Shown here: positions 11,403-39,393 of the stretch, piece after piece | Position numbering within the stretch: position 1 is the stretch's first letter | How the letters are laid out: every line of letters begins with the position of its first letter | Source of the DNA: Deltaproteobacteria bacterium | GTDB taxonomy: Bacteria > Desulfobacterota > Dissulfuribacteria > Dissulfuribacterales > QOAL01 | Length of the DNA stretch: 43,766 bases | NCBI GenBank assembly: GCA_024275145.1 | Contig: JAJRZR010000020.1 | Span: 1 to 43,766 of the forward strand | Direction: 5' to 3' | The notes under the pieces: model-generated | What the model was told of the DNA's origin: nothing | Databases searched by the model: none | What the model saw: the letters and a program-made list of their open reading frames with translations, nothing else | Position numbers and translations under genes: made by a program

Positions 11403-12221
11403 ATGATCACTCCGGAACAGTTCCGGTTTTTTGCCGATTTGGTCAAAGCATCGAGCGGAATCGCTCTGGGGAAGGGCAAGGAGTACCTCCTTGAAAGCCG
11501 TCTCAATGAATTGGCCAAGGTCCTTGGTTTGAAAGACCTGGATGAGTTGTATCGCAAGGCCAGGTTCCAGATGACCCCGAAATTAAAGGACCAGATAATT
11601 GAGGCAATGACCACCAATGAAACCTATTTTTTCAGGGATCAGCATCCATTTGAGGCCCTGAAGAATGAAATCGTTCCCGATCTCATGGCCAATAACAACG
11701 GCAGAAAACAGATCAGGTTCTGGAGCGCGGCGTGTTCCACGGGGCAGGAACCATACAGCATAGCCATGACACTTTCAGAGTATTTTCCAGGACTTTCCAC
11801 GTGGAACACCGAGATACTGGCGACCGATATCTCGCAACAGGCGATTCAGAAGGGCCAGGCTGGCCGTTTTACCCAGGTCGAAGTGAACAGAGGCCTACCA
11901 GTTACGTTACTGATCAAATATTTCAAGCAACAGGGGGCCTTCTGGATAGTGGATTCAAGATTGAAGAAGAACATGCGGTTCAGGCGGTTGAATCTTCTAC
12001 AGCCGTTTGTAGGCATAAGGGATCTGGATGTAATTTTTTGCAGGTATGTACTGATCTACTTCGATCAACAAACAAAGAAACAAATCATAGAAAAACTCGT
12101 AAAGGTATTAAGGCCTGGTGGTTACCTCGTATTGGGGGCAACCGAAACGCCGGTGGGTATGCCATCCGTAATGCAACGGAAGATGTTCGGGCGGGCCTTG
12201 TGTTGGCAAAAGAACCTTTGA
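11403..12221 (+). CDS. cheR: Chemotaxis protein methyltransferase CheR
   Basis: SAM-dependent enzyme that methylates receptor glutamates. The product is 272 aa. An N-terminal helical domain is followed by MTTNETYFFRD, the SAM-binding segment SAACSTGQEPYSIAM and CRYVLIYFD. The last motif is usually CRNVLIYF, so the Asn is replaced by Tyr here. ATG 11403 has GAAGGA six bases upstream; a TTG at 11397 in the same frame is less likely. It is followed closely by cheA. Confidence 0.94.
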   Translation: MITPEQFRFFADLVKASSGIALGKGKEYLLESRLNELAKVLGLKDLDELYRKARFQMTPKLKDQIIEAMTTNETYFFRDQHPFEALKNEIVPDLMANNNGRKQIRFWSAACSTGQEPYSIAMTLSEYFPGLSTWNTEILATDISQQAIQKGQAGRFTQVEVNRGLPVTLLIKYFKQQGAFWIVDSRLKKNMRFRRLNLLQPFVGIRDLDVIFCRYVLIYFDQQTKKQIIEKLVKVLRPGGYLVLGATETPVGMPSVMQRKMFGRALCWQKNL

Positions 12222-21236: not shown

Positions 21237-21860
21237 ATGAACAAAATAAAGAGGGCTCTTATCAGCGTTACTGACAAGAGCGGGGTGACGGAACTTGCCA
21301 GCGAACTCCATAATATGGGGGTGGAAATTATCTCTACCGGAGGTACGGCAAAGGCAATCAGAAAAGCCGGTGTGGATGTAAGGGACGTATCAGAAATAAC
21401 GGGTTTCCCTGAAATGATGGACGGGCGCGTAAAGACCTTACACCCCAAGATTCACGGGGGGATACTGGCTATAAGGGACAATGAGACCCATGTAGAGCAG
21501 ATGAATGCCCATGGCATTGGGCCCATCGACATGGTGGTTGTAAACCTCTACGCCTTTGAAAAAACGGTTGCCAAGGAAGGGACAGGGTTGGCAGATGCCA
21601 TAGAGAACATAGATATCGGTGGACCCACACTACTTCGTTCTTCAGCTAAAAATTTCAAATACGTGACCGTGGTTGTCGATCCGCAGGATTATCAAAGGGT
21701 ACTTGACGAAATGAGGGCAAACGACGGGACAACCTCGCTCAAAACCAGGTTTGACCTTGCCAGGAAGGTATTTGCAACAACTAGTTACTACGATGAGGCC
21801 ATCAGCCGGTATCTTGCTTCCATTGACCCAGAAACAGATCCCTATTTTCAAGGCGATTAA
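21237..21860 (+). CDS. purH: Stand-alone IMP cyclohydrolase (PurH N-terminal domain only)
   Basis: Ring-closing enzyme of the last step of purine synthesis, FAICAR to IMP. The 207-aa product is only the MGS-fold half of the usual bifunctional PurH (about 510-530 aa): [53 protein letters not shown] and [16 protein letters not shown]. It ends naturally at DPYFQGD with TAA, and no AICAR-transformylase remnant is visible downstream to 22148. The formyltransferase must be encoded elsewhere. A dispersed repeat copy sits directly before the start codon. Confidence 0.92.
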
Positions 21861-38496: not shown

Positions 38497-39081
38497 ATGA
38501 GGGTAACGATGAACACGCTCTACGATCAGATCAACACGGATCTTTCGAGGTTGGTTGAGAAACAGGCCAAGACAAACAGCAGCATATCTTCGGGTAAGAT
38601 CTATCGTATGCCCTCGGATGCCCCGGTGAAATTGACACATGCGTTGGAGGTGAGAAGTACCCTGTCTGAAACGGATCAGTACAAAAGAAATATCTCGTAT
38701 GGCAAGGGCTGGACAAAGGCGACCGAAACGGCATTGAGGCAGATTGTGGATCGTCTCGGCCGGGCCAAGGAGCTTGCGGTTGAAGGGGCGAACGATATCC
38801 AAAATTCCGATGATAGGAGGGCCATTGCCTCCGAGGTCAAGGCCATTCGGGAGGAGGTGGTGGCCTTGGCGAATACCAAGATGGGAAATAGATATGTTCT
38901 GGCGGGTTCAAAAACGACCGGTTATCAACCAGGCCAGCATCCTTTCTCCTTGGACAGGGATGGGCATGTCATCTATCTAGGTAACCAGGAGGACTTCTCT
39001 GTGGATGTGGCCTCTGGCCAGAGATTGAAGATAAATATCGACGGTCAGACTGCCCTGATCCAAAGTGGAATTTTCGAGTAG
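38497..39081 (+). CDS. flgL: Flagellar hook-associated protein 3 FlgL, N-terminal part up to an in-frame TAG
   Basis: The first 194 residues of the hook-filament junction protein that sits next to flagellin. It has the typical start MRVTMNTLYDQINTDLSRL, the SISSGKIYRMPSDAPVKLT segment and LANTKMGNRYVLAGSKTT. The frame is then stopped by TAG at 39079-39081, after GIFE, exactly where FlgL proteins continue into the helix following NVFD. The same frame goes on without gap to 39393 and encodes the missing C-terminal part. Together the pieces give 299 aa, the normal length of FlgL. See the next entry and the finding. Confidence 0.92.
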   Translation: MRVTMNTLYDQINTDLSRLVEKQAKTNSSISSGKIYRMPSDAPVKLTHALEVRSTLSETDQYKRNISYGKGWTKATETALRQIVDRLGRAKELAVEGANDIQNSDDRRAIASEVKAIREEVVALANTKMGNRYVLAGSKTTGYQPGQHPFSLDRDGHVIYLGNQEDFSVDVASGQRLKINIDGQTALIQSGIFE

Positions 39082-39393
39082 TTGGACCAGCTCTACGATG
39101 CATTACAGGCAGATAGCCGCCCCGATATAGAAATTGCCCTGGGGGATATCGACAAGGGTATCAAGCACATAAGTGATCAAAGCGCAGTTCTAGGAGCCAT
39201 CCAGAACGATCTTGACAATCGGGATGATATCACGGATACGCTAAAGCTGACGAACAAAACCCTGCTCTCTTCCATAGAGGATACAGATATCATAAGGGCG
39301 ATATCCGATCTAAAGACCCTTGATACAGGGTATCAAGCTGCGCTTGCCTCGGCTTCAAAGGTAATGAGCCTGAGTCTGGTGGATTTCCTGTAA
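39082..39393 (+). CDS. flgL: FlgL C-terminal part, in frame after the TAG
   Basis: 103 residues in the same frame as the upstream part: LDQLYDALQADSRPDIEIAL, DIDKGIKHISDQSAVLGAIQ, then the C-terminal heptad helix LASASKVMSLSLVDFL that FlgL shares with flagellin. There is no ribosome-binding site before its first codon (TTG directly after the TAG), so independent translation is unlikely unless by reinitiation. FlgL needs both terminal helices to assemble; without this part the filament junction should fail. Possible meanings: recent nonsense mutation, sequencing error, or amber readthrough. Confidence 0.88.
   Translation: MDQLYDALQADSRPDIEIALGDIDKGIKHISDQSAVLGAIQNDLDNRDDITDTLKLTNKTLLSSIEDTDIIRAISDLKTLDTGYQAALASASKVMSLSLVDFL

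Follow-up and report, generated by a model that had tools for sequence, protein, structure and literature searches.

A single in-frame amber codon in flgL of a Dissulfuribacterales draft genome as a probable consensus base error

The interrupted flgL gene and its relatives

The stretch of DNA analysed here (the window; 43,766 nucleotides, contig JAJRZR010000020.1) carries a flgL gene whose reading frame is cut by one amber codon (Table 1). The original prediction, made from the letters of the window, described a single TAG with no shift of frame and FlgL sequence continuing on both sides of it. Direct reading of the sequence bears out the first statement, and matches to protein family models bear out the second, but the length given for the two parts, 299 aa, is corrected to 297 aa (298 codons when the stop position is included). 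When read through the stop, the product scores 223.6 bits against the NCBIfam model TIGR02550 (flagell_flgL), above the curated cut-off of 127.2, and Pfam places a Flagellin_N and a Flagellin_C domain on it. The two parts match the 387-position model of FlgL (HAP3, the hook-filament junction protein) in order and reach both of its ends. The difference from the family lies in the single TAG, which is absent from every relative aligned and leaves the gene without one uninterrupted frame. A second intact flgL, named beforehand in the original prediction as a finding that, together with the lack of a suppressor system, would point to an error or a pseudogene, was searched for, and the host assembly holds one flgL only, the sole other match being an intact flagellin of 507 aa.

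Table 1. Coordinates of flgL and of other features discussed (positions in the window unless a locus or contig is named)
Feature	Location	Strand	Description
flgL, whole frame	38497..39393	+	closed by TAA at 39391..39393; no frameshift (direct sequence)
flgL, part before the stop	38497..39078	+	194 codons; Flagellin_N (PF00669); TIGR02550 positions 1-184
In-frame TAG, probable consensus base error	39079..39081	+	direct sequence; Ala, Ser, Thr or Gly codon in 29 relatives
flgL, part after the stop	39082..39393	+	103 codons and TAA; Flagellin_C (PF00700); TIGR02550 positions 284-387; no relaxed selection detected
PurH-like gene	21237..21860		207 aa; IMP cyclohydrolase-type
CCG protein gene, candidate selenoprotein	L123:3065..4333 (contig C80)	-	TGA inside NTE-TGA-GH
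Periplasmic binding protein gene (PF01497)	L135:11009..12304 (contig C98)	-	in-frame TGA, probable selenocysteine
Long ORF (L310)	contig C21, stop at 11585	+	TGA, probable selenocysteine

The codon was compared in close relatives, as the original prediction had proposed. In G001, a genome of the same genus, the orthologue aligns over 298 of 298 positions without gaps and at 92% identity, and has ACG (Thr) at the stop site. Across the 29 relatives aligned, the site is occupied by Ala (20), Ser (five), Thr (two) or Gly (two); all have a sense codon, and neither TAG nor any other stop occurs there. The dN/dS ratio between the host and G001 is approximately 0.04 before the stop and 0.06 after it, and polarisation by nine outgroups places three of the changes after the stop on the host branch, compared with six on the G001 branch. 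Neither measure detects relaxed selection downstream of the stop, a result that a very recent nonsense event would also give. The neighbours of flgL common to the host and G001 are open and similarly constrained, and the window's other genes for the flagellum and for chemotaxis are likewise open. The statement that the remainder of the operon is intact thus holds for the neighbouring genes checked.

Elsewhere in the window lies a solitary PurH-like gene without the transformylase half, which has the same short form in G001.

Single-stop interruptions across the host assembly

The host genome is a draft assembly of 2.65 Mb in 120 contigs, rated 100% complete. A sample of 1,028,108 bases (1.03 Mb, 39% of the assembly) was scanned for lone stops flanked closely, in the same frame, by coding sequence on either side. 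Most of the candidates proved to be neighbouring genes, not interrupted single genes. By a list that depends partly on our own reading, 14 single genes, flgL included, are cut by one stop: five by TAG (flgL, murB, a biotin carboxylase, an ABC ATPase with a C-terminal extension and hypB), seven by TAA (dnaB, secA, trmFO, a phosphoglycerate mutase, a kinase-like gene, a methyl-accepting chemotaxis protein and a hypothetical gene) and two by TGA (moaE and mazG). Counting in-frame TAG codons in other genes, another of the checks first proposed, thus yields four more TAG-cut genes, together with the TAA and TGA cases. Nine of the cut genes were named by Pfam, secA, hypB, trmFO and mazG by solved structures, and the kinase-like gene by our own reading. 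At least 13 single-stop genes other than flgL are spread over contigs C27, C50, C16, C98, C2, C9, C15, C18, C31 and C66; as dnaB, murB and secA are among them, genes annotated on this assembly should be treated with caution.

The same scan of 281 kb of G001 found no interrupted single gene, the candidates being only neighbouring genes by our reading; at the rate of the host assembly, such a zero has a probability of 0.02 to 0.04. In 400 kb of G023, a relative assembled as a single contig, two candidates may, in our judgement, be interrupted genes, and both are non-essential.

It is well established that a null of dnaB, murB or secA is impossible in any living cell, and all three show the fault seen in flgL. 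dnaB and murB have one match each in the host genome, both interrupted, and the secA stop falls within a conserved stretch, single-match status being established for dnaB and murB alone. The consensus sequence of these indispensable genes must therefore be in error, and because flgL shares both the type of fault and the spectrum of change, a base error is the most likely source of its stop as well.

The spectrum in question emerges from comparison of each stop with the residue found at its site in homologues. The relatives have Glu at the dnaB stop site in eight of nine cases and Glu or Asp at the sites in the biotin carboxylase and the ABC ATPase, and a relative has Glu at the site in the kinase-like gene. 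The murB site holds Ser in G001 and Ser, Ala, Phe or Cys in other relatives, and in solved chains the residue is Glu in SecA and TrmFO and Gly in MazG. At all nine sites with a homologous residue, flgL included, a single G>T (or C>A) change would turn a codon for a residue found at that position into the stop; this fit assumes Glu at sites where both Glu and Asp occur among relatives, and Ser (TCG) at flgL and murB. In three of the genes (flgL and those for the biotin carboxylase and the ABC ATPase) TAG cannot be reached from the G001 codon in one step, and the fit assumes a codon from other relatives or, as with TCG at murB, an unobserved one. Given the codon use of the host, G>T and C>A steps make up 36% of the one-step routes to stops, and nine of nine has a p of approximately 1e-4 under uniform substitution. 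On these assumptions the spectrum supports a base error but does not prove it. Oxidised guanine in sheared DNA is known to give G:C>T:A errors (PMC8748355), the change that all nine of these stops fit; that artefact is usually described at the level of reads, whereas here it is deduced from the consensus alone.

Of the three readings offered in the original prediction, sequencing error is strongly supported, since dnaB, murB and secA are interrupted in the same way; a nonsense mutation is possible but weaker, and readthrough is contradicted. We consider the flgL TAG to be a consensus base error in the draft assembly, with a probability of about 0.86. A probable origin is an oxidised guanine read as T, or similar damage or a library artefact, and the error would then have become fixed in a thinly covered consensus. 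The flgL of the living organism is probably intact, its product an ordinary hook-filament junction protein. The assembly therefore invites caution: in a draft, even one rated 100% complete, genes may seem broken through base errors, essential genes of the same assembly, once inspected, quickly expose them, and calls of motility loss, pseudogenes or recoding are premature on the consensus alone.

A genuine and very recent nonsense mutation appears unlikely. It would leave a FlgL of 194 aa without the C-terminal helical region, with filaments unattached and the strain non-motile. Such a mutation would be viable, as flgL and the flagellar genes are dispensable for growth; it would affect the single flgL copy and, if very recent, would leave selection unrelaxed, as observed. 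However, like faults in genes that cannot be lost show that false stops are common in this assembly, and the open state of the remaining flagellar and chemotaxis genes of the window also speaks against it. The literature searched yielded nothing useful, either on flgL nonsense mutants or on premature stops in metagenome assemblies.

It is very improbable that the stops are present in the cells of a real G:C>T:A mutator lineage, arisen for example by loss of mutY or mutM. This spectrum is the classic mutY/mutM phenotype and fits it as well as it fits an artefact, but dnaB, murB and secA could not have been lost, and flgL has no changes private to the host genome at positions invariant in relatives.

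Amber decoding and re-initiation at flgL

Decoding of the flgL UAG as an amino acid, by pyrrolysine or by a suppressor tRNA, is hardly credible. The frame does continue and both parts are conserved, and an in-frame TAG between conserved coding sequence is likewise the mark of pyrrolysine-encoding genes of the MttB type. In contrast to such systems, the host has neither pylS nor MttB and does not avoid TAG, and its relatives have no TAG at the site. The search for pylS, which the original prediction had suggested, gave no match over the cut-off in the host genome (two weak matches were read as an EpmA-like protein and LysS), and the MttB-type methyltransferase family (PF06253) had no match there. 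In the 1.03 Mb sample TAG terminates 180 of 624 long ORFs (approximately 29%) and is therefore an ordinary stop in the host, and genes are cut by TAA at least as often as by TAG. Pyrrolysine decoding was rejected on the missing pylS and MttB and the common use of TAG as a terminator. Nor does the intact operon favour readthrough, as had been argued, because interruptions are scattered across the whole assembly.

The proposed search for an amber suppressor gave a partial answer. From sequence spanning each of the 36 Rfam tRNA hits, 37 tRNAs were typed by ARAGORN; the anticodon CUA occurs in none of the 37, a set that is incomplete, with Asn, Ile and Tyr tRNAs also missing, so that a suppressor could be overlooked. 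A separate pattern search for suppressor tRNAs gave four matches, the same number as its reversed control, and ARAGORN confirms one of them, as tRNA-Arg(UCU). A UAG truly present and decoded by an unrecognised suppressor, with filament assembly dependent on readthrough without pyrrolysine genes, we regard as highly implausible. Least probable of all is a FlgL made as two chains, the second re-initiated at the TTG directly 3' of the stop (39082): the TTG adjoins the TAG, but flgL is split in no relative.

Conserved TGA interruptions

TGA interruptions that are conserved between genomes were set apart from the error set as selenocysteine candidates. One lies in a gene for an iron-sulfur protein with the cysteine-rich (CCG) domain. 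Because all 13 genomes searched contain the TGA-bearing gene and SelB is present, this protein is probably a selenoprotein. In the periplasmic binding protein the same codon is TGA in G001, and another relative has Cys at that position; here the TGA probably encodes selenocysteine. At the TGA of the long ORF on contig C21, G023 likewise has TGA and a distant G001 homologue has Cys, a pattern that also points to a probable selenocysteine.
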